Shown one piece after another: positions 31,105 to 54,218 of a DNA stretch of 64,000 nt; positions within the stretch are counted from its first letter, which is position 1; each line of letters begins with the position of its first letter. The translations under genes and the position numbers were made by a program. This DNA comes from a virus. The notes under the pieces are model-generated. The model searched no databases and was not told the DNA's origin. It saw nothing but the letters and a program-made list of their open reading frames with translations. The DNA is taken from positions 62,001-126,000 of IMG/VR virus record IMGVR_UViG_3300009593_000010. One strand, 5' to 3'.

Positions 31105-31404
31105 ATGAATATAGAAATTAACTATAAATTTAATGAAGACAACCTTTTGGGTGAAATTAAAGATTATGTCGATGAAACTTATTCCCAACATTATGGTGGT
31201 GGTAAGTATCAAGCAACAGATATGATTCTTGATTCTGGACATGGGGAAGGCTTTGCAATCGGTAACATTATGAAGTACGCAATGAGGTATGGAAAAAAGG
31301 GTGGGAAGAATCGTCAAGATATTTTGAAGGTTGTTCACTATGCTTTGATCGCATTGCATAACCACGATGAAACTATAAATGAGGTAAATCATGAATCTAA
31401 GTAG
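31105..31404 (+). CDS. DUF3310-like protein, 99 aa
   Basis: SQHYGGGKYQATDMILDSGHGEG, FAIGNIMKYAMRYGKKGGKN and ILKVVHYALIAL match the layout of DUF3310 phage proteins (HYxG..., F...N..KY..R.GKK..., DL.K...YL). The family is often annotated as nucleotide kinase-like without firm proof. The ATG is at the predicted transcript 5' end. It overlaps gp45 by 14 nt, so gp45 is co-transcribed from this promoter. Confidence 0.75.
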   Translation: MNIEINYKFNEDNLLGEIKDYVDETYSQHYGGGKYQATDMILDSGHGEGFAIGNIMKYAMRYGKKGGKNRQDILKVVHYALIALHNHDETINEVNHESK

Positions 31405-32056
31405 TGAAACTATTAACCTTTTACAAAACTTCGGTAGTATCAATTCTGGTATTACAGTAAAAGTTGGGAATGAATTGAAAACAATTAGTCCCATGAAGAA
31501 TATATTTGGTAAGGCAACTATTGCTGAAGACTTTGATCGAGAGTTTTCAATTTATGACTTATCAGAATTTTTAGCAACCATATCATTATTTGATACACCA
31601 ACTTTCGATTTTGGTGACACTTCTGTGACTTTGAGTGGAGACTCTTCAAAAGCAGTTTATAATTATGCTGATTCAGCAATGATAATTTCTCCAGAGAAAG
31701 ATATCACTATGCCAAATCCAGAAATTATATTTGAACTTGATAAAGAAACTCTTACAAAAATGGTCAAAAGTTCTGCCGTACTATCTCTTCCAGACTTAGT
31801 GTTAGAATCTGATGGAACAGATGTAACCTTAACAGTTAAAGATCGTAAAAACTCTTCAACTAATAAGTATGGAGTTAGAGTTGCTGATGGAGATAACAGT
31901 GTATATTCAATGAATTTTAAGATAGAGAATCTTAAAGTTGTATCAGACGATTATACAGTTTATGTATCATCTAAAGGTATCTCACACTTTGTTGCAGTCA
32001 ACAAGGGTGTTGAATACTTTATTGCTTTGGAACCAGATTCAAAGTATGGTGTCTAA
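31391..32056 (+). CDS. 45: Sliding clamp (gp45)
   Basis: This 221-aa protein (T4 gp45 is 228 aa) begins MNLSSETINLLQNFGSINSG, typical of T4-type clamps, and contains the two beta-alpha-beta repeats. The trimer tethers gp43 to DNA and also activates late transcription through gp55/gp33. It is followed by gp44 after a 147-nt gap. Confidence 0.95.
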   Translation: MNLSSETINLLQNFGSINSGITVKVGNELKTISPMKNIFGKATIAEDFDREFSIYDLSEFLATISLFDTPTFDFGDTSVTLSGDSSKAVYNYADSAMIISPEKDITMPNPEIIFELDKETLTKMVKSSAVLSLPDLVLESDGTDVTLTVKDRKNSSTNKYGVRVADGDNSVYSMNFKIENLKVVSDDYTVYVSSKGISHFVAVNKGVEYFIALEPDSKYGV

Positions 32057-32203: not shown

Positions 32204-33133
32204 ATGAAAGACTTTTTATGGGTAGAAGAATATAGACCTCGTACAATCGAGGATTGTGTTCTGCCCTCTCAAATCAAACAAACCTTTTTTGATCTAAAGG
32301 ATGAAATTCCAAACATGATTTTATCTGGTTCTGCTGGAACTGGAAAAACTACTGTTGCAAGAGCATTGTGTGATCAAATAGGTGCAGATATGATGTTCAT
32401 CAATGGATCAGAGGAATCTGGTATTGATGTACTCAGAACCAAGATTAAAAACTTTGCCAGCACTGTGTCGTTACAGGGTGGGAACAAAGTTGTAATTATT
32501 GATGAAGCAGATTATCTAAATCCCCAATCAACTCAACCAGCCCTTCGTGGGTTCATCGAAGAATTTCACAAGAACTGTAGATTTATTCTTACTTGTAATT
32601 ACAAGAACAGAATCATACAACCTCTACATTCTCGATGTACTGTAATAGACTTTAAGATACCATCTGAGGAAAGACCAAGACTTGCAAGTGTATTTCTTGC
32701 TAGGATTATGACAATACTAACTGAGGAAGGTATCAAATTTAATGTGGAAGTATTACAGGAATTGGTACTCAAGTTCTTTCCAGACTTTCGTAGAACGATA
32801 AACGAACTACAAAGATATTCTGTAAGTGGAGAAATCGATGTAGGTATTCTCACTAATGTTGCAGAAGAAAGTATGAGAGAATTATTGTCTCATGTTAAAA
32901 CAAAAAGATTTACAGATATGAGAAAGTGGGTTGCACTGAATTCAGACAATGACCCAGTTATGTTATATCGTAAGTTATATGATACCTTGTATGATACAGT
33001 TGATAAATCTAGTATCCCACAAGCAGTATTGATCATTGCAGATTATCAATATAAATCTGCTTTCGTAGCAGACCAAGAGGTGAATCTGGTCGCATGTTTA
33101 ACTGAATTAATGATGGAGTGTAAATTCAAATGA
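32204..33133 (+). CDS. 44: Clamp loader large subunit (gp44)
   Basis: This 309-aa AAA+ protein (T4 gp44 is 319 aa) has Walker A SGSAGTGKTT (41-50), Walker B VVIIDEADYL and sensor TCNYKNRI. With gp62 it loads gp45 onto primer ends. In T4 gp62 follows at once. Here gp62 lies 5 kb away at 38167. Confidence 0.96.
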   Translation: MKDFLWVEEYRPRTIEDCVLPSQIKQTFFDLKDEIPNMILSGSAGTGKTTVARALCDQIGADMMFINGSEESGIDVLRTKIKNFASTVSLQGGNKVVIIDEADYLNPQSTQPALRGFIEEFHKNCRFILTCNYKNRIIQPLHSRCTVIDFKIPSEERPRLASVFLARIMTILTEEGIKFNVEVLQELVLKFFPDFRRTINELQRYSVSGEIDVGILTNVAEESMRELLSHVKTKRFTDMRKWVALNSDNDPVMLYRKLYDTLYDTVDKSSIPQAVLIIADYQYKSAFVADQEVNLVACLTELMMECKFK

Positions 33134-33479: not shown

Positions 33480-34241
33480 ATGAAGAAGTTAACTTTAGAA
33501 AATGATTTCAATATAAGAATGAATCTGGGTATTGACTATAAATCAATGACAGGATGGTGTGTTGAAAACGAAAATCATCCAGCACTATCCCATCAAGAGG
33601 ATGGTATACAAGTACCAAACCAATTTAGTGATACTCTTAGATCATATGTAAGGGGTGCAACTGAGGGATCAAATCCAGATGAACATGATTGTATCGATGA
33701 TGAACAATCAAAAGAAATTCAATTCTACCAAACATACAATCCATTTACTTTTGGAATACCTTGTTTTGCAGACTTGTATTGGGCATTGAACAAGTTCTTT
33801 TATGAACATGATCAAGTCAAAGAGGCTGGAGAACCATATTACATACATGGGTGGTTTAATGTTTATCATTCAAAGGTGGGTGAAGAGGGTTACGATCATA
33901 TTCCGTGGCACAGGCATTTACATACTTTACATCCTCATATCTATCATGGATTTTATTGTGCAAATGTACAACCATCTGAAACTTGGTATCGATACTCTGC
34001 CCAATCACCAGAAGAAGATATCGTTAAGATTCCAGACTATGATGATATGTTAATCTTCTCTCAGAGTGGATATGAACATTGTTCATCTGCATGGAAGGGT
34101 GAAGTTCCACGAGTAACAGTTGCATTTGATATTATGCCAGAATCAGTCTATCTTGGACTCCAAGAGATAGGAGATTCAGATTATCATTGGAGTTTAGATA
34201 GTAAACAATACCAAGCAATACCATTTCCATATTTACCATGA
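33480..34241 (+). CDS. 2OG-Fe(II) oxygenase-like protein
   Basis: This 253-aa paralogue of the protein at 3657-4238 shares YYIHGWFNVY, H-x-H at 144-146 (PWHRHLH), HGFYC, distal H200 (SGYEHCSSAW) and R211 (VPRVTVAFDIMP). It lies directly before the cytosine methyltransferase and overlaps it by 4 nt. It may therefore belong to the DNA-modification cassette, but its substrate is unknown. Confidence 0.72.
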   Translation: MKKLTLENDFNIRMNLGIDYKSMTGWCVENENHPALSHQEDGIQVPNQFSDTLRSYVRGATEGSNPDEHDCIDDEQSKEIQFYQTYNPFTFGIPCFADLYWALNKFFYEHDQVKEAGEPYYIHGWFNVYHSKVGEEGYDHIPWHRHLHTLHPHIYHGFYCANVQPSETWYRYSAQSPEEDIVKIPDYDDMLIFSQSGYEHCSSAWKGEVPRVTVAFDIMPESVYLGLQEIGDSDYHWSLDSKQYQAIPFPYLP

Positions 34242-35503
34242 GATATTTTCAATACACATTAAAAGATTTAGAAACCAATTCTGCAAGGAAAGAATTTAAT
34301 TACATTACATTCTTTGCTGGTGGTGGTGGAAGTTCTTGTGCATATAAACTCTCTGGTGGTGATGTGAGGTATATGAATGAATTTCAACAGGTACATGTTG
34401 ATACTTATCTTGCAAACTTCCCAAATACAGTTCATGAATGTAAAGACATTAAACAAGTGACTGGTAAAGATATATTAGAAATGACTGGACTCAAGAAAGG
34501 TGAATTAGATATTATGGATGGTTCACCACCATGTCCACCATTCTCAGTTGCTGGAACTAAACGAGAAGGTTGGGGAAAAGAGAAAGTTGCATATGGAATG
34601 AAACAACAAAACATAGAAGACCTTACATGGGAAATGATTAGGATTGCAGAAGAAGTAATGCCTAAAGTTATCGTATGTGAAAATGTAAAAGGTCTATCAA
34701 TGGACTATGCAAGAGATCATCTTATTAGGATGATAACAGATTTTGAAAAACTTGGGTACTCAGTGACTTGGAAAGTTATGAAAGGACATGAACATGGAGT
34801 ACCTCAGAAAAGAGAAAGGGTATTCATGGTTGGTGTTCGTGATGATGTACTAGATGCAATTGGATTACCTTTTATGTGTTTAAGTGGATTGTTTCCAGAG
34901 GCAAGTGATGAAAGAATATCAATAGGTGAAGCAATAGATGATCTAATGCACGATGAAGAGAATATCTTTGTTGGTGCTGATCTTGAGACTGAAATGTTAA
35001 AATCATCTAAAGCACATTGGATAACTGGATTTGAAAAACATCCAGACCCAGACCTTGCACATTGTGGCCCATGTGAAGGATTAGACCCAGTTCTAAAAAG
35101 GAAATCTAATGCAGCCTATATATCTATAGGTGATGATATTGTTGGGCCATGGTTTCAAGAACAAGTCAAGAATGGTCATGTAAAACCAGAAGATGCAAAA
35201 CATTCTTATTACATGTCAAGGATTGTTCCAAAAACTCTTCCAGCACATTCATTAACTGAACAGGGTTGTCAACCAAAGTTTATGGGTGGTAATCATTTTC
35301 ATTACAATGGTAGGAGAATATACACACCAAGAGAAATGGTAAGGTTAATGACTCTACCAAACGATTATAAAATGACTGGAGACATTAACGAGAAAGGTGC
35401 AAGGATAGGTTTAATGGTTGCACCATTGTGTCTACATTATCTAGTAGAACAAATAAAAGAACAGGTATTAACGCCATGGAATTTACTGCAAGAAAAGACT
35501 TAG
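34238..35503 (+). CDS. DNA C5-cytosine methyltransferase
   Basis: This 421-aa Dcm-type enzyme has motif I FFAGGGGSS (25-33), motif IV GSPPCPPFS with catalytic Cys99, motif VI CENVKGL, motif VIII VPQKRERVFMVG and motif X GARIGLMVAPLC. It makes 5-methylcytosine in DNA. No restriction endonuclease is nearby. The next gene is a TET/JBP-like dioxygenase, so 5mC is probably an intermediate for further modification. Confidence 0.95.
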   Translation: MRYFQYTLKDLETNSARKEFNYITFFAGGGGSSCAYKLSGGDVRYMNEFQQVHVDTYLANFPNTVHECKDIKQVTGKDILEMTGLKKGELDIMDGSPPCPPFSVAGTKREGWGKEKVAYGMKQQNIEDLTWEMIRIAEEVMPKVIVCENVKGLSMDYARDHLIRMITDFEKLGYSVTWKVMKGHEHGVPQKRERVFMVGVRDDVLDAIGLPFMCLSGLFPEASDERISIGEAIDDLMHDEENIFVGADLETEMLKSSKAHWITGFEKHPDPDLAHCGPCEGLDPVLKRKSNAAYISIGDDIVGPWFQEQVKNGHVKPEDAKHSYYMSRIVPKTLPAHSLTEQGCQPKFMGGNHFHYNGRRIYTPREMVRLMTLPNDYKMTGDINEKGARIGLMVAPLCLHYLVEQIKEQVLTPWNLLQEKT

Positions 35504-36477
35504 GTAAAAAAGAAACTCACGAAGGATTTAATGGTCAGTGGTTAGGGACATCTTCATATGATGATGTAGTTAGTTCTATAGGAGTTGATGAAGAGATCAT
35601 AAAGATTTATAAACCTTTTGCATCACTGGGAGAGAAACCTCTCCTTGCATGTATTGTTAAAGGTCTGTATAAGGGTGACACATATAAAGAAGTTAAAGAT
35701 ACTTTAATGTCTATCGATGATACTTCTACCATGAGAGCAAATGCATCAGGGCCTATCGACCATAAAGAAATGGAAGATAAGGGTTTGGTTGAAGGTAAAG
35801 ATTACAAACTCAGAACAAAGAATTCCTATTATCCACTGAAAAAGAATGGACAGTGGAACATGATTGCAGAAGCAAATGCAATTCATTCAGTCTTTGCTGG
35901 TTATAAACGAGGTAGATTCACAGGTATGATAGGATTATCTAACTGGTGTGAGAAGAAATCTAATGTAGATAAGTGGGAAAAGATGAAAAAGATTGCACAG
36001 GTTAATGAGATTGCACTTAAAAAAGGTTGTCCAGATATCTGGAAACTACAAAGAACATATGCAGATGAATGTATTGATGAACAATATCAATTAGGTGGAG
36101 CTCCAATTACAACTCTATCTGCAAACAAATATACTACTGGTGGAACTCAAAAGATGTCTGCACATGTAGATGGTAAAGATTTAGAATTTGGTATGACTAC
36201 AATGTGTGTTTTCAGAGAAGGTAATTTTGGTGGGGCATACTTATGTTTCCCAAGATATGGAATTGCCATTGAGGCAGATGATGGTGATGTGCTGATTGCA
36301 GATTCAAATGAGATACATGGAGTCACTCCTATCACTGGAGAAGGTATAAGGTTATCTTGTGTTGCATATTGTTCAACTGATGTTGCAACTAAAGGTAGAG
36401 GTGGTAAACCAGAAAAACCTATTGGTCAACATGCAAACAAAAAACAGAATAGAGGAACATTAGGAGACTTCTTATGA
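35476..36477 (+). CDS. TET/JBP-like 5-methylcytosine dioxygenase
   Basis: This 333-aa 2OG-Fe(II) enzyme has metal ligands H230-x-D232 (SAHVDGKDLE) and H281 (SNEIHGVTP), and the 2OG-binding R292 (EGIRLSCVAY). The spacing and the GDVLIADSNEIHGV block are those of the TET/JBP family. It starts at ATG 35476, overlapping the methyltransferase by 28 nt. Phage TET-like enzymes next to C5-methyltransferases are known to oxidise 5mC to 5-hydroxymethylcytosine, which glycosyltransferases then extend. Confidence 0.85.
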   Translation: MEFTARKDLGKKETHEGFNGQWLGTSSYDDVVSSIGVDEEIIKIYKPFASLGEKPLLACIVKGLYKGDTYKEVKDTLMSIDDTSTMRANASGPIDHKEMEDKGLVEGKDYKLRTKNSYYPLKKNGQWNMIAEANAIHSVFAGYKRGRFTGMIGLSNWCEKKSNVDKWEKMKKIAQVNEIALKKGCPDIWKLQRTYADECIDEQYQLGGAPITTLSANKYTTGGTQKMSAHVDGKDLEFGMTTMCVFREGNFGGAYLCFPRYGIAIEADDGDVLIADSNEIHGVTPITGEGIRLSCVAYCSTDVATKGRGGKPEKPIGQHANKKQNRGTLGDFL

Positions 36478-37178
36478 AAATAGTAATTACAGGTTCTAGG
36501 GGATTTATAGGAACATACTTACTAAGTGCTTTAGATAAACATGAAATTGTAGAATGGGATAGAAAATTAGATAGGGATATAAAAAATTTCTACCTTGAAG
36601 GTGATGAAGATTTTGTTATTCATCTTGCTGGATTAATCTCACCAAGAGATTCTATTAATGAACCACATGATTACTGGTTGCAAAATGTAGAATACAGTAA
36701 AAAACTATTTGATGTATGTAAAGATGTTCCAATGGTTTATGCTTCAAGTGCAGCTGCAAAAGAATATTGGAGAAGTCCATATGGAACAACTAAAAAAGTT
36801 TTAGAAACACTTGCACATAAAGGTCATGTTGGATTAAGATTTGAAAGTATCTATGGTGATGGTGCATCAGACATAGGATTAATAACTAGAATCAAAAATG
36901 GAACTATTAAGTATCATACAAATCATATAAGAGACTTTGTTCATATAGATGATATCATAAATTCTATCTTATTGTTTATAGAACAAGGAACACGAGATAA
37001 ACTACCATATTATGAAGTTGGAACTGGTAAAGAACATTTAGTTTCAGATGTAGTAAAACATTTCGGAGTAGATGTTCCAGAAAAAGAAGGGGACAATATT
37101 GAAATATTTCGTAGTGTTGCAGATACAACAGAAATAGAAAAGTTAGGTTGGAAAGCGGAGAAGAGTGTTTATGATTGA
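36474..37178 (+). CDS. NAD-dependent sugar epimerase/dehydratase
   Basis: This 234-aa short extended-SDR protein has Rossmann motif GSRGFIG (7-13) and catalytic Y103-x3-K107 (PYGTTK). It is shorter than typical sugar-nucleotide epimerases (about 310 aa), missing part of the C-terminal domain. It overlaps both neighbours and probably supplies or modifies the sugar nucleotide used by the next gene. Confidence 0.85.
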   Translation: MKIVITGSRGFIGTYLLSALDKHEIVEWDRKLDRDIKNFYLEGDEDFVIHLAGLISPRDSINEPHDYWLQNVEYSKKLFDVCKDVPMVYASSAAAKEYWRSPYGTTKKVLETLAHKGHVGLRFESIYGDGASDIGLITRIKNGTIKYHTNHIRDFVHIDDIINSILLFIEQGTRDKLPYYEVGTGKEHLVSDVVKHFGVDVPEKEGDNIEIFRSVADTTEIEKLGWKAEKSVYD

Positions 37179-37989
37179 TTTAGTTATATGTACATTTAAG
37201 AGATTGGATAAACAGATTACTCTGGGAAATATTCCAGAGAAGTTTAGAGATAATGTAACTCTTGTAGTCCAACCACAAGAGGAAGAAGAAGCAAAAAAAG
37301 TTCATTCTAATATATTTGTTCTTAATGGGGATAATATTGGATATGCAAAAACTATCGAACAGACAACAAAAGAATTTGCAGTAAATCGTAATAATCATTT
37401 TTGGTTGTTTGATGATGATTTAACTTTTAGATTCAATGAGGAAATAGAAGTAGGGGTCAAGGGAAAGAAACATAAATTTACAGAACAACATTTTGAACAA
37501 ATGTTAATAGAAATTGAAAAAGAATTAGACTCTGGAATGATGCATGGTGCATTAGGAACAACTTGGGTATTTCCTTGGGGCAAACTTCCATATGTTGAAA
37601 ACAGTAGAATGTGTGGAAATAAAATCTACAATAAAGACCTTGCAAAAGTCTGGAACGATATTGACTGGGTTGGATGTTGTGGTGCAGAAGATTTCTTTGT
37701 AAACATACAATTATTAACTATGGGATATTCAAACAAGGTATGGTATAATTATGTTATTGATCCCGGCCACAGTTATCAAGATGGTGGTTGTTCTGATTAT
37801 AGAGATTTAGAATACCACAATAAAGCATGTAAAGACCTTGCAGAATTATATCCACAGTTTACTAGACTTAAAACTAATATTCAAAAGTCTGGGCCTTGGA
37901 AGGGTGTAGAAAAATTAGGAGTTCATGTGCAATGGAAAAAAGCATATGAATCATCAAAGGTCTCGACAATAACAGATTTTATGGTATAA
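37171..37989 (+). CDS. GT-A-type glycosyltransferase, probably TET-associated
   Basis: This 272-aa protein starts at ATG 37171 (MIDLVICTFKRL); an upstream GTG is weaker. It has a GT-A start, a D-N-I-G-Y-A segment, the metal/nucleotide motif FDDDL (DDD at 81-83) and GAEDFF near residue 175. The placement after methyltransferase, TET and epimerase fits TET-associated glycosyltransferases, which glycosylate 5hmC in phage DNA. The substrate is inferred from context. Confidence 0.75.
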   Translation: MIDLVICTFKRLDKQITLGNIPEKFRDNVTLVVQPQEEEEAKKVHSNIFVLNGDNIGYAKTIEQTTKEFAVNRNNHFWLFDDDLTFRFNEEIEVGVKGKKHKFTEQHFEQMLIEIEKELDSGMMHGALGTTWVFPWGKLPYVENSRMCGNKIYNKDLAKVWNDIDWVGCCGAEDFFVNIQLLTMGYSNKVWYNYVIDPGHSYQDGGCSDYRDLEYHNKACKDLAELYPQFTRLKTNIQKSGPWKGVEKLGVHVQWKKAYESSKVSTITDFMV

Positions 37990-37996: not shown

Positions 37997-38167
37997 ATGA
38001 ACTCAACAAACGAAAACATTCTTCAAATTATTCAATCATTTAAACTTCTTAATCCAGAGGATCAAGAAGTAGTTTTAAAGACTTTACAGAATGTAAAGAC
38101 AGATTCAAATCATTTTAAAAAAGATATTGATTCTTATCGTGCAAAGTTAGTAAGGTCTACTAAGTAA
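37997..38167 (+). CDS. Hypothetical protein, 56 aa
   Basis: ATG 37997 is at the predicted transcript start and the stop overlaps the gp62 ATG (TAATG). The protein is helical (ENILQIIQSFKLLNPEDQEV). Function unknown. Confidence 0.6.
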   Translation: MNSTNENILQIIQSFKLLNPEDQEVVLKTLQNVKTDSNHFKKDIDSYRAKLVRSTK

Positions 38168-38544
38168 TGAACCCATTTGATTATGTCAATGCATTGACCT
38201 TCACTAAGAAGGACATTATGGTTGACAGACAAGCAGAACGAGAGTACGCTCCCTTTATCACAAACAGGACACTTTCGTACCACCAAGATTGCATCATGTA
38301 TGCAAACGAAATAAATCGTAGACACCACCTAGATTCTCGTCTACAATTCCATTATTTCCTAAATACTCTAAGAAAACGAAAAAGGTTTGCCAAATGGATC
38401 AAACCAAATGTTTTGGAAGATATGAAGGTTATCCAATCATATTATGGATGTTCTAAATCTAAGGCAGAAGAATACTTAAATATTCTTTCTTCTGAACAGA
38501 TTGTAGAACTTAATGAGAGAATGAAAAAAGGTGGGAGACAATAA
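38167..38544 (+). CDS. 62: Clamp loader small subunit (gp62)
   Basis: This 125-aa protein begins MNPFDYVNALTFTKKDIMVD and contains YAPFITNRTLSYHQD and FLNTLRKRKRFAKW, the conserved pattern of short gp62 proteins in marine T4-like phages (T4 gp62 is longer, 187 aa). It forms the 4:1 loader with gp44. Here it is separated from gp44 by the modification island but still followed by regA. Confidence 0.9.
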   Translation: MNPFDYVNALTFTKKDIMVDRQAEREYAPFITNRTLSYHQDCIMYANEINRRHHLDSRLQFHYFLNTLRKRKRFAKWIKPNVLEDMKVIQSYYGCSKSKAEEYLNILSSEQIVELNERMKKGGRQ

Positions 38545-38959: not shown

Positions 38960-39883
38960 ATGGCATTACTGAAATTCAACGACACATATAAAGGGGTGAC
39001 GAATTCTCCTACTATGGAAATTAAGAATAGAACTATGAGTAAGATATTCAAACTAAAAGAAGTAGAAAGAAGAGTTTTATTTGCAGAGTTTGCTCAAGCT
39101 GCATATTGGAATAGTGCAAAAGCAAAGACCTTTGGTAAGTCAAAGGGTATGACTGCACATACCTTAATCGACATAGAAGGTGCTCAGGTGCATGTATGGC
39201 ACTCTAATGAGGACTTAATTATAGGTGCAAGGGGTACAGAACCCACAGAAATGAATGACATTTATGCAGATTTAGAAGTATTTAAAGACGATGCATTTAC
39301 AGGTGTAGGACAAATACATCAAGGTTTCAGAGAAGAAGTAGATAAGGTCTGGGACAAAGTATTTGGAAGAGTAAACAAATACGGAATGAAAGGTAAGGTT
39401 GCAAAGAAAATGTGGGTATGTGGTCATTCACTAGGTGGTGCAATGGCAACCCTTATTGCATCCAGACTAGAATATAATGCAAAAGAAAAATTTAATAATG
39501 GTATGGAGTTAGTACATTCACCAATCAATGGTTGGGATGTTGATACTCTTTACACATATGGTTCACCAAGAGTTGGTGGCCCTGTGTTCTCGAAATGGTG
39601 TGATAAACATTTAAACCATCAAAGATTCGTGAACAATAACGATGTTGTACCTTGTGTACCATCTGTTCTCAGATGGAAACATAATGGTAATTGTAAGTAT
39701 ATAATGAGTACAGGTGAAGTAACAAATCTAGGTCGATGGTCTATGAAGAGAATCAAAGACAAGGGTTGGAGTTTACTAACTACCATCATCAAAGGAAGAT
39801 TAGATATCGTTGCCGATCATAATATACAAGATTACATTGATCATTTAACCAACGATATGGAAATAAAACAAGTACAGAGGTAG
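38960..39883 (+). CDS. Class 3 lipase-like alpha/beta hydrolase
   Basis: This 307-aa protein has nucleophile motif GHSLGG (Ser157), oxyanion GARGTEP (residues 89-95), and a later YGSPRVGGPVFSKW block typical of fungal/class 3 lipases. No signal peptide is seen, so it probably acts inside the cell, perhaps on membrane lipids or at lysis. It follows regA by 13 nt. Confidence 0.87.
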   Translation: MALLKFNDTYKGVTNSPTMEIKNRTMSKIFKLKEVERRVLFAEFAQAAYWNSAKAKTFGKSKGMTAHTLIDIEGAQVHVWHSNEDLIIGARGTEPTEMNDIYADLEVFKDDAFTGVGQIHQGFREEVDKVWDKVFGRVNKYGMKGKVAKKMWVCGHSLGGAMATLIASRLEYNAKEKFNNGMELVHSPINGWDVDTLYTYGSPRVGGPVFSKWCDKHLNHQRFVNNNDVVPCVPSVLRWKHNGNCKYIMSTGEVTNLGRWSMKRIKDKGWSLLTTIIKGRLDIVADHNIQDYIDHLTNDMEIKQVQR

Positions 39884-39887
39884 TAAC

Positions 39888-40226
39888 ATGTATATGTTAC
39901 TCATCCTCGCACTCAAGAGTATTCTCTCGACAGTTATAGGTTCAACATTTTACAAATGGTTCCAGTCAACTAAGGTTGGAGTTTGGTTTCAGCTTAAGGT
40001 GAACAAATTCATGGAATATTTGTCAACTAAATATGATATAGAGATTACCAAGAAAGACGCAAAGTGGAGACAAGATTATCCATTACTTGCAGATAGGGTC
40101 GATAAACTAGAATCTATGGCACATCCTAAATGTGGATTAGATGGTTTCGATGGTTATCAACCTCTTGTTAATCGAATTGAAAAACTTGAACAGGAACTTA
40201 AAAATGTCAAAAAAGGAAAAACCTAA
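39888..40226 (+). CDS. Membrane-anchored coiled-coil protein, 112 aa
   Basis: It has an N-terminal hydrophobic helix (MYMLLILALKSILSTVIGST) followed by a polar region and a C-terminal coiled coil (VNRIEKLEQELKNVKKG). It could be a membrane-tethered accessory. Function unknown. Its end overlaps the COQ4-like gene by 23 nt. Confidence 0.6.
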   Translation: MYMLLILALKSILSTVIGSTFYKWFQSTKVGVWFQLKVNKFMEYLSTKYDIEITKKDAKWRQDYPLLADRVDKLESMAHPKCGLDGFDGYQPLVNRIEKLEQELKNVKKGKT

Positions 40227-41220
40227 TCATTATGTCGTTGGAAGATGGACTTCTAACTGGCACCAACTTAAACTATTTCTAACAGTCTTATTCAAAAGAC
40301 TAGATACTTCAAAGAACGAATCTCAACACGAATTTGGTGATGCAGTCACAATGTTCTTTGGTATTGGAGAACAACAAGGCCGTGGAATTGCATTCAAATG
40401 GGCAACTGCACAACCACCTCAGGCAAAAAATATTACTGATGGTCATTGGTATGCAGATACAGAACTGTTAGAAGATTTCGATGCATTAAAAAAGTATAAG
40501 AAGAATACACTTGGTAAACGATATCAAGAATTTTTTCAATACTACAACGATTACATGAATAAGAAGTTGGGTATTAATAAATGGATACCACAAGTATCAA
40601 TGCATAGGAGATCCGCAGAGATGTTAGAAGCAGACCAAAGAAAATCTTTCTTAGGTCAAACTGCAAATGAAAAGAATACCAAGTCCTTTGATAATAAAAA
40701 GGATGACCCATTGAATATTGGATTGAACCCTGCTGTTGTAAACTACTATCTTACATCACCTACAGTACATCCTCATATGAAAAGAGATGTACAAAGACTG
40801 GGAATGATGAAGGCAGTTAGGAAAAGAATGGGAGATCGTTTCTTTGGAATCCATGATTTATATCATGTACTACTTGGAGTTGGTAGAGACCAACTTGGAG
40901 AGATGTGTATTCAATGTAAGAATGCTGTTGACTCTGGATTGTATGGATTACATCTAGTGACATGGTTAGAAGCATGTAGAGAAGCAGTAATACATTTATC
41001 ATTAACTCCATTCAAAATTAGAAAAGAAGCATATAGACTTGCAAAACTATCAGAGGATTTATTAGTTCAAGACTATAAAAAACTATTAAAGGTTGATGTT
41101 GATAAGATTCGTAAAGACCTCAACATACAAGAAAACAAAATCTATCAAGACTTTTGTGGGGTGACTCACGAGAATGATTTACCAAAAGGTAAGTATAGAG
41201 TAGGAGAATATGGTATTTAA
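40204..41220 (+). CDS. Second COQ4-like protein, 338 aa
   Basis: ATG 40204 is chosen because the 21 residues upstream would lie in the coiled-coil gene. The C-terminal half has the exact COQ4 metal motif H217-D218-x2-H221-x11-E233 (HDLYHVLLGVGRDQLGE). The N-terminal about 190 residues have no counterpart in the 234-aa COQ4-like protein at 23959. It may bind a lipid or quinone-like substrate. Activity is not shown by sequence. Confidence 0.72.
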   Translation: MSKKEKPNHYVVGRWTSNWHQLKLFLTVLFKRLDTSKNESQHEFGDAVTMFFGIGEQQGRGIAFKWATAQPPQAKNITDGHWYADTELLEDFDALKKYKKNTLGKRYQEFFQYYNDYMNKKLGINKWIPQVSMHRRSAEMLEADQRKSFLGQTANEKNTKSFDNKKDDPLNIGLNPAVVNYYLTSPTVHPHMKRDVQRLGMMKAVRKRMGDRFFGIHDLYHVLLGVGRDQLGEMCIQCKNAVDSGLYGLHLVTWLEACREAVIHLSLTPFKIRKEAYRLAKLSEDLLVQDYKKLLKVDVDKIRKDLNIQENKIYQDFCGVTHENDLPKGKYRVGEYGI

Positions 41221-51731: not shown

Positions 51732-54218
51732 ATGCACTTTTATACTAATGTTTCACGATATAAGAACCTAATCCTTGTTCGAGAGTTCAAGGATGGGAAG
51801 AACACTCCTAGAAAGATTGAGTATAAACCTACTCTATATCTTCCAACCAACAAAGATAGTTCATTCAGAAGTATCTCTGGGCAAAACCTAGAACCTAAAA
51901 AGTTCAATAGCATTTCTTATACAAGACCCTTCATCCACAAATATGCTGATGTTGAGGGTTTTGATATACATGGGTTTGACAGATATGAATATACATGGGT
52001 GTCTGATACATTTAAAAATGATATTGAATGGAGTATGAGAAACATCAAGATAATGAATCTTGATATTGAGTGTGAATGTGAATATGGATTCCCAGAACCA
52101 ACTCTTGCACCAGAACCAATTAATGCAATAACCTTTAAGATGTTTGGTCAACCTACCAAGTATGTTTTTGGTACTCAAGAATGGGAACATGGGGATGAAA
52201 ATATCCAATACTTTCATTGTCAGAATGAAGTGCATCTTCTTAAAACTTTCATAGAAGAATATCGTAAAGTTATGCCAGATATTATTACTGGTTGGAATGT
52301 TGATACTTTTGATATTACATATTTAATGAATCGTATCACTAAGGTAATTGATGAAAGGACTGCAAATCAACTCAGCCCTTGGGCAATAACTTCAAGTAGG
52401 GAATGGGAAACTTTTGGAAACAAACAACAATCCTACAACCTTGTAGGAGTTGAGACGATAGACTACCTTAAACTATACAGAAACTTTACTTTCAAAAATA
52501 GAGATTCTTATAAACTGGAAAACATTTCCCAGATAGAATTGGGAACTGGTAAGATAGATTATTCAGAGTTTGGTGCAATGCATCTATTCTATAAAGAGAA
52601 CTATCAAAAGTTCTTAGAATATAATGTTCGTGATGTTGATCTAGTAGAACAACTTGATAATAAGTTGGGTCTTATGGGACTAATGTGTCAGATGGCATAT
52701 ACTGCAAAGTGTAATTATTCAGATACATTTGGTATGGTTAAGTATTGGGATATTCTTATATACAATCGTTTAAGACAACAGAATATTATGGTTCCACCTA
52801 AACCTCATGGGAATAAGAGTTCTAAGTTTATTGGTGCGTATGTCAAAGACCCACAAGTTGGTTTACATGAATGGGTTATGTCTTTTGATTTGAATTCACT
52901 ATATCCTCATTTGATTATGCAGTACAATATTAGTCCAGAGACTATGCATAAGAGAAGTCAAGTTGGTGGTTATGGTGTTGATGCATTCTTAAACAAACAA
53001 GTTGAAGTGACTGGTAGTGCAACTATATGTCCAAATGGTGCAAGATTTAATAAGAATAAACAAGGGTTCCTTCCAGAGATACTTGAGTCTTTATATGATG
53101 AAAGGGTAATTTGGAAGAATAAGATGCTTGAATATCAAAAAGAATTTCAAGATACTCAAGACCAGAGTAGAAAAAATGAGTTAAATCGTGAGATTGCAAT
53201 TGCACACAACAACCAGATGGTAAGAAAGATTGCATTGAACTCTGCATATGGTGCTATGGGTAATCAGTGGTTTAGATATTTTGATCTAAAACTTGCAGAG
53301 GCAGTAACAACAAGTGGTCAACTTGCAATTAAGTGGGTAGAGAAAGCAGTTAACCAGTGGTTAAATGGATTACTCAAAACAGATGATGTAGATTATGTTA
53401 TTGCAATCGATACAGATTCTATCTATGTAAGGTTTGATGAAGTAATTAAAAAGGTTAATCCACCAGACCCACTTCAATTTCTGGATGATATATCCATTAA
53501 ACATTTTGAACAGGTTGTTATTAAAGATGCATATCAAGAACTTGCAGAATATACCAACGCATACAAGAACAAGATGCAGATGGGTAGAGAAATTATTGCA
53601 GACAAGGGAATTTGGACTGCAAAGAAAAGATATATTCTTAATGTTCTCGACAATGAAGGTGTCAGATTAAAAGAACCTAAACTCAAGATGATGGGTATTG
53701 AAACTGCAAAGACTTCAACACCTCAGTGGGTTCGTGATAAACTCGAAGATGCACTTAAAGTTGTAATGTTGGGTGATGAAAATGCAATTCATACTTTTGT
53801 AAATGAGGCAAGAGAACAGTTTAGAAAATTACCAGTTGGTGATATTGCTTTCCCTCGTTCAGTAAATGGACTTGTTGAATATTCTAATCCCAAAACAATC
53901 TATAACAAATCTACACCAATGCATGTTAGAGCATCTTTATTATTTAATCATTATCTTAAAGAGAATAACCTTTTAAATGTTCATCCAAGTATTCAATCTG
54001 GTGAGAAAATTAGATTTGTACATCTAAAAATACCAAATCCAATTCAAGAGAATGTCATAGGTTTTATAAATACTTTACCAGAGGAGTTTGATTTGGATAA
54101 CTACCTTGATTATGATAAACAATTTGATAAATCTTTCATCGAACCACTAAAACTTATACTTGAGAAGATCGGATGGTCAACAGAACCACAATCTTCCTTA
54201 GAGGATTTTTTTGGTTGA
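51732..54218 (+). CDS. 43: Family B DNA polymerase (gp43)
   Basis: This 828-aa polymerase (T4 gp43 is 898 aa) has exonuclease motifs around MNLDIECE and TGWNVDTFD. Polymerase motif A is FDLNSLYPHL (about 384-393), motif B is KIALNSAYG (about 500-508), and motif C is IDTDSIY (about 559-565). A C-terminal LEDFFG matches the gp45-binding peptide of T4-type polymerases. It replicates phage DNA with gp45, 44/62 and 41. Confidence 0.97.
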   Translation: MHFYTNVSRYKNLILVREFKDGKNTPRKIEYKPTLYLPTNKDSSFRSISGQNLEPKKFNSISYTRPFIHKYADVEGFDIHGFDRYEYTWVSDTFKNDIEWSMRNIKIMNLDIECECEYGFPEPTLAPEPINAITFKMFGQPTKYVFGTQEWEHGDENIQYFHCQNEVHLLKTFIEEYRKVMPDIITGWNVDTFDITYLMNRITKVIDERTANQLSPWAITSSREWETFGNKQQSYNLVGVETIDYLKLYRNFTFKNRDSYKLENISQIELGTGKIDYSEFGAMHLFYKENYQKFLEYNVRDVDLVEQLDNKLGLMGLMCQMAYTAKCNYSDTFGMVKYWDILIYNRLRQQNIMVPPKPHGNKSSKFIGAYVKDPQVGLHEWVMSFDLNSLYPHLIMQYNISPETMHKRSQVGGYGVDAFLNKQVEVTGSATICPNGARFNKNKQGFLPEILESLYDERVIWKNKMLEYQKEFQDTQDQSRKNELNREIAIAHNNQMVRKIALNSAYGAMGNQWFRYFDLKLAEAVTTSGQLAIKWVEKAVNQWLNGLLKTDDVDYVIAIDTDSIYVRFDEVIKKVNPPDPLQFLDDISIKHFEQVVIKDAYQELAEYTNAYKNKMQMGREIIADKGIWTAKKRYILNVLDNEGVRLKEPKLKMMGIETAKTSTPQWVRDKLEDALKVVMLGDENAIHTFVNEAREQFRKLPVGDIAFPRSVNGLVEYSNPKTIYNKSTPMHVRASLLFNHYLKENNLLNVHPSIQSGEKIRFVHLKIPNPIQENVIGFINTLPEEFDLDNYLDYDKQFDKSFIEPLKLILEKIGWSTEPQSSLEDFFG

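Follow-up and report, generated by a model that had tools for sequence, protein, structure and literature searches.

We analyzed a 64,000-nucleotide stretch of viral DNA (the window), which comprises bases 62,001-126,000 of the 129,558-base record IMGVR_UViG_3300009593_000010 from IMG/VR; the record is incomplete. The window has matches to tail sheath, portal, scaffold, DNA polymerase, UvsX, and helicase, which identifies the virus as a T4-like myovirus. Judged by the portal, its nearest isolate is Pelagibacter phage Mosig (55%), and the phage is a marine T4-like phage. Our subject is an island of four overlapping genes that encode a DNA cytosine C5-methyltransferase, a TET/JBP dioxygenase (TET), a nucleotide-sugar epimerase, and a glycosyltransferase (GT) of the TET-associated glycosyltransferase (TAGT) family of Pfam (Table 1). 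A model had described this cassette from the sequence (the first-pass annotation), and the four genes lie where it placed them. Each protein matches its Pfam family (C5-methyltransferase, Tet_JBP, epimerase, or TAGT) above the Pfam cut-off. Three things escaped the first-pass annotation: two of the proteins have polymerase-like tails, the sugar module is exchanged, and the methyltransferase is close to CmoX.

Table 1. Features at and around the cassette, in window coordinates (pLDDT, predicted local distance difference test; SDR, short-chain dehydrogenase/reductase; 2OG, 2-oxoglutarate; 5mC, 5-methylcytosine; 5hmC, 5-hydroxymethylcytosine).
Feature	Coordinates	Strand	Evidence
Sliding clamp (gp45-like), putative docking partner	31391..32056	+	Named by position and C-terminus, not by profile
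Clamp loader large subunit (gp44-like)	32204..33133	+	Named by T4-like gene order and clustering with the relatives' gene
2OG-Fe(II) oxygenase-like flanking backbone gene	33480..34241	+	Weak phrog_81 match
DNA cytosine C5-methyltransferase, 421 aa, predicted 5mC maker	34238..35503	+	PF00145, E = 3.8e-48; TIGR00675 over cut-off
TET/JBP dioxygenase, 333 aa, predicted to convert 5mC to 5hmC	35476..36477	+	PF12851 (Tet_JBP), E = 5.3e-12, above gathering score
Recombination boundary (upstream nearest L005/L013, downstream nearest L040)	36441..36477	+	Sliding identity, homology blocks
TET C-terminal tail GTLGDFL, putative sliding-clamp-binding peptide	36454..36474	+	Conservation, low pLDDT, pattern census
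Compact extended-SDR nucleotide-sugar epimerase, 234 aa	36474..37178	+	PF01370, E = 2.2e-18
GT-A glycosyltransferase, TAGT family, 272 aa	37171..37989	+	PF20691, E = 2.5e-7, above gathering score
GT C-terminal tail STITDFMV, putative clamp-binding peptide	37963..37986	+	Pattern census; pLDDT about 55 at the end
Conserved 125-aa gene, downstream island border	38167..38544	+	Conservation in relatives
T4-type DNA polymerase, with reference tail SSLEDFFG at 54192-54215	51732..54218	+	PHROG 262, E = 2e-302

The TET protein is predicted to oxidize 5mC to 5hmC in DNA. Its active-site residues had been named correctly: H230, D232, H281, and R292, which correspond to the HxD motif, the distal histidine, and the 2OG-binding arginine, are invariant in 30 aligned homologs. 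Sequence searches of PDB with TET and with the GT gave chance matches only, so we used structure models in their place. The AlphaFold2 model of TET (pLDDT of 88) places the 333-aa protein within the TET/JBP family: its 25 best matches in PDB are CMD1, TET2, NgTET1, and CcTet (E = 4.5e-12 downward), and FTO and ALKBH rank behind these. The protein thus withstands the structural check that the first-pass annotation had set for it. Phage TETs are reportedly active on 5mC, with a preference for Gp5mC.

We retrieved 57 viral loci with TET, as well as further loci through the 2OG gene; we cite them by L numbers. The methyltransferase and TET genes adjoin or are close by in most of the 57 loci that are long enough for both, which exceeds a chance pairing. 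In L008 and L010, the slot after TET is filled by a T4-type DNA alpha-glucosyltransferase (PF11440, E about 1e-75). The T4 member of this family acts on 5hmC in DNA, which supports 5hmC as the product of TET. Also, we did not find dCMP-hydroxymethylase or thymidylate synthase (PF00303) in the phage's own 129.6-kb record or in the records of ten relatives, all of which are incomplete. This argues for oxidation in DNA over the T4 route. The structural matches and the lack of a hydroxymethylase match support the route that the first-pass annotation had proposed, from 5mC via 5hmC to a glycosylated cytosine, after replication. In the cultured Methylophilales phage Melnitz, the TET gene (L002:5208-6194) is annotated as hypothetical and the methyltransferase is annotated as HhaI.

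TET and the GT both end in peptides that resemble the C-terminus of the phage's DNA polymerase. We drew a pattern from the tails of the modification enzymes: [LIM]xx[FYW][FLIMVYW], after which the protein ends within at most two further residues. Just 3 of the 78 open reading frames in the window have it, namely the DNA polymerase, TET, and the GT. We then took a census of 1,600 open reading frames, drawn from the related loci as well as the window. In the 35 clusters with at least 10 members, the tail is the rule only in the polymerase (38/38), TET (93/97), and the GTs of the TAGT cluster (14/19), and its mean frequency across 291 other clusters is 1.3%. Wherever TET has the tail, G327, L329, and F332 are unvarying, and the preceding linker is variable, with insertions and deletions. 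In many loci, TET and the polymerase have the hexamer SLDSFF in common.

As checks, we used sequences that played no part in defining the pattern. Those from Melnitz agree with it. In DLP6, the polymerase ends in ATLDSFFA, TET ends in ATLGDFFV, and the TAGT relative ends in DLSSFFN. In the loci that were retrieved via the 2OG gene, two GT-B enzymes and one N6/N4 methylase bear polymerase-like tails (one of the two GT-B tails fits only if valine is allowed at the first position). The tail is absent from four TAGT relatives that are encoded beside hydroxymethylase-type genes.

In T4, gp43 (the polymerase), gp55, and gp33 each bind the clamp through a C-terminal motif, and these motifs can replace one another (PMC2988020); the T4 alpha-glucosyltransferase also binds the clamp (PMC13216743). 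Because the T4 polymerase binds the clamp through such a tail, cytosine modification is probably clamp-tethered as well, via TET and the GT. More broadly, we lean towards the view that, within this marine T4-like group, DNA-modifying enzymes of unrelated folds (TET, GT-A, GT-B, and N6/N4 methylase) have each acquired polymerase-like clamp-binding tails independently. Their genes would form an exchangeable island next to those for the clamp and its loader, so that entire modification chemistries could be swapped and still dock on the same clamp, with no such tail on the enzymes that act on free sugars or nucleotides.

The consensus of the bacterial beta-clamp motif is QLxLF. Nonlabens phage P12024L, which is 35 kb long and has TET, encodes a TAGT-like protein with the C-terminus NQLEIF and a methyltransferase with the C-terminus QQTLF (L075:3628-5023); both resemble the bacterial motif.

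The methyltransferase-TET pair recurs in two different phage backbones, and the genes that follow TET vary. This slot can contain an epimerase and a TAGT, other glycosyltransferases, GT8, AGT (the alpha-glucosyltransferase family), a ParB-like protein, a cytidylyltransferase, or no tailoring gene at all before the next conserved gene. The window is most similar to L005 and L013 until about 36.45 kb, and to L040 from there to 37.95 kb. Since the similarity switches at the stop codon of TET, the epimerase-GT module has been exchanged. The epimerase is 90-91% identical in L039-L041 while TET is just 69% identical. Judging from these comparisons, the methyltransferase and TET form a constant core, and the sugar module is exchanged among phages like a cartridge.

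Two other families occur in the same slot. A P-loop kinase-like protein (AAA_33) of about 178 aa is found after TET, or in its slot, in backbone B (L014-L049); it might act on 5hmC DNA. ParB-like proteins of 330-420 aa (weak matches to PF02195) are often found there as well (L014-L037 and L088-L107), and ParBc proteins have also been reported beside CmoX (PMC12783734).

Given these observations, we propose that the methyltransferase would methylate cytosine to 5mC within a short motif, for which our favored guess is GpC, and that TET would hydroxylate it to 5hmC within DNA. The short epimerase would prepare a nucleotide sugar, which the TAGT-family enzyme would transfer onto the 5-hydroxymethyl group, and the resulting sugar coat would shield the phage DNA against nucleases. 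Going one step further, TET and the GT would dock on the phage's sliding clamp via their polymerase-like C-terminal peptides and would thereby reach newly copied DNA, so that modification would follow the fork. We put the probability of this reading as a whole (a post-replicative cytosine hypermodification cassette with clamp-docked TET and GT, a constant methyltransferase-TET core, and an exchanged sugar module) at about 0.7.

Several points weigh against it. We infer clamp binding from tail similarity, and the p-values for the tails (about 0.002) are descriptive because the pattern was written after the tails of TET and the GT had been seen. The methyltransferase, which is the first enzyme to act on the DNA, has no polymerase-like tail; neither do 5 of the 19 GTs in the TAGT cluster, nor CmoX and CmoY from phage S-B43. 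The T4 alpha-glucosyltransferase binds gp45 (Sommer 2004, as cited in PMC13216743) though it has no such tail, and glucosylation in T4 reportedly does not depend mainly on this binding (PMC13216743). Since our record is incomplete, a gene that seems to be absent may lie elsewhere. Finally, the T6 TAGT adds the second glucose instead of the first, which bears on the acceptor of the window's GT.

The tailless methyltransferase, the five tailless GTs, and the T4 enzyme would all fit a pathway of the same three activities in which the tails cap the fold or mediate contacts between enzymes, and nothing is tethered to the clamp. We consider this unlikely. The tail is almost restricted to the polymerase and to modification enzymes of unrelated folds, and in many loci the hexamer is identical to that of the polymerase on the same contig. 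Also, the tails have a flexible linker and low pLDDT.

As to the GT itself, its acidic motif (FDDDL) had been recognized correctly: the aspartates at 81-83, along with E173 and D174, are invariant in 15 aligned sequences. The model of the GT (pLDDT of 89) has a GT-A, GT2-like fold, with RmlT and TarP among its matches in PDB. We infer that the GT transfers a sugar to 5hmC in DNA. Alternatively, it might add a second sugar, with the first coming from another enzyme, because PF20691 contains the T6 enzyme, which extends alpha-glucosyl-hydroxymethylcytosine (PMC13216743; PMC13390438). But the phage's record has a single match to TAGT, and no other GT adjoins the cassette (AGT, or PF11440, was not searched for in the record outside the window), so a second-sugar role seems quite improbable. 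Solitary TAGTs have been noted as possible new transferases (PMC13216743).

The epimerase has 234 aa versus the typical 310-340. Its TGxxGxxG and Y103xxxK107 motifs are invariant across aligned relatives. Because the relatives from other phages are nearly equal in length and retain Y103xxxK107, it is a compact form; we ruled out a broken gene. The first-pass annotation took the short length as a hint of a specific, possibly unusual sugar; the best family profiles, heptose 6-epimerase and GalE-type, are all far below the cut-off, and no profile fixes the sugar. Enzymes that synthesize cell-surface sugars often have GT2-like or epimerase folds, but it is very improbable that these two enzymes act in surface or host glycan chemistry and neighbor the methyltransferase-TET pair by chance: the TAGT family is named for its association with TET, an epimerase-GT pair is found after TET in both phage backbones as well as in distant relatives, and the tail of the GT matches those of the polymerase and TET.

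The first-pass annotation credited the methyltransferase with all key motifs. The catalytic PC (in PPCPP), ENV, and QxRxR (as QKRERV) are indeed present, but the asparagine of motif X (Asn304 in HhaI) is not: Leu392 stands in its place, and it is invariant across all aligned TET-linked relatives. By sequence, the closest solved structure is CmoX (PDB 8YF3; E = 2e-71), which is a GC-specific carboxymethyltransferase from Synechococcus phage S-B43 (PMC12783734). At the position of Asn304, CmoX has Arg350, which binds the carboxylate of carboxy-S-adenosylmethionine (Cx-SAM; PMC12783734). Because CmoX departs from HhaI at this same position, we read the missing asparagine as a trait of a subclass. 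Unlike CmoX, the window's enzyme is followed by TET.

Given the similarity to CmoX, and that the CmoX genes of phage S-CRM01 likewise adjoin clamp genes, the methyltransferase might form 5-carboxymethylcytosine from Cx-SAM, which would leave TET and the GT to act on another substrate; but Arg350 is replaced by Leu392, and a strict search for CmoA (TIGR00740) gave no match in the phage's incomplete record or in its relatives, so this is scarcely credible, and CmoX-type chemistry was discarded. We read the methyltransferase as an S-adenosylmethionine-dependent 5mC enzyme from a distinct subclass. Its specificity is likely to be GpC, although its recognition domain differs from that of CmoX, which uses GC. 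We also considered dinucleotide bias as evidence of GpC specificity, but this is not diagnostic: GC is low in the window (0.69), but it is similarly low in S-CRM01 and L015 (0.66), and the value for CG is lower than that for GC (0.39).

In S-CRM01 (L126:2364-7146), genes for CmoA and CmoX immediately follow gp45-gp44-gp62, which means that another type of cytosine chemistry is likewise located beside clamp genes.

In the window, the putative clamp gene precedes the clamp loader, which matches the position of the annotated gp45 in Melnitz and S-CRM01, and its product ends in ALEPDS (versus ALEADS in T4 gp45). The 2OG gene separates the clamp loader from the island, and the first-pass annotation had suggested it as a fifth member of the cassette. 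Scanning for it with a single protein gave only a contig with identical sequence, so we used an alignment-based scan. This found the 2OG gene next to the gene for the clamp loader in seven relatives whose available sequence has no methyltransferase or TET (L133, L134, L140, L141, L143, L144, and L156), and the second backbone lacks the gene. The seven relatives indicate that it belongs to the backbone, so we no longer count it with the cassette.

Where these relatives lack the cassette, the island site contains FolE/QueD/QueE/QueC (L134 and L141), an N6/N4 methylase (L143 and L144), or glycosyltransferases with a cytidylyltransferase (L133, L140, and L156). The homologs of QueD, QueE, QueC, and FolE (L134:5805-7041 and L141:6144-8510) belong to the 7-deazaguanine pathway and replace methyltransferase-TET, so that guanine chemistry takes the place of cytosine chemistry at one locus. 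The N6/N4 DNA methylase is the only gene in its island (L143:1185-2591 and L144:4655-6061), and it ends in GSLSSFFE, which is polymerase-like. L133 also encodes a Tsp45I-type restriction endonuclease inside the phage island (L133:5762-6523; Pfam E = 1.6e-66), with no C5-methyltransferase nearby. In the window, genes for a class 3 lipase and a Coq4-like protein are immediately downstream of the island (38960-41220).

The cassette itself is a further case of a known type of system. As in the phage TET cassettes of Burke et al. 2021, genes for a C5-methyltransferase, TET, and a glycosyltransferase are found together. Melnitz is a cultured phage with a similar methyltransferase-TET pair (genes 5-6; 55% and 52%, respectively), but it has no homolog of the epimerase or of TAGT directly after TET. 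The T6 TAGT has PF20691 and a predicted GT-A fold in common with the window's GT; it differs in that it adds a second glucose, and the tail is lacking in the four TAGT relatives that we examined beside hydroxymethylase-type genes (the T6 tail was not read). A parallel for docking is the T4 alpha-glucosyltransferase with gp45, a DNA glycosyltransferase that binds a sliding clamp, as the window's GT putatively does. However, T4 forms hydroxymethylcytosine before replication, with dCMP-hydroxymethylase, and its alpha-glucosyltransferase is a GT-B enzyme with no polymerase-like tail. What sets this case apart is that two of its enzymes have polymerase-like tails and that its island is exchangeable: in the literature that we searched, we found no description of these tails or of a swap boundary at the stop codon of TET, although Burke et al. 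2021 may mention them.

How phages that modify their DNA after replication do so quickly and across the genome is an open issue. If our reading is correct, a clamp-docking tail would be a simple answer, as modification would track the fork. If sugar modules can be swapped next to the clamp genes, this would also explain how phages could quickly change their DNA coats in response to the nucleases of their hosts. And searches for unknown DNA-modifying enzymes could use the tail as a sequence handle: here, it led us to an N6/N4 methylase and to two enzymes of the GT-B type.

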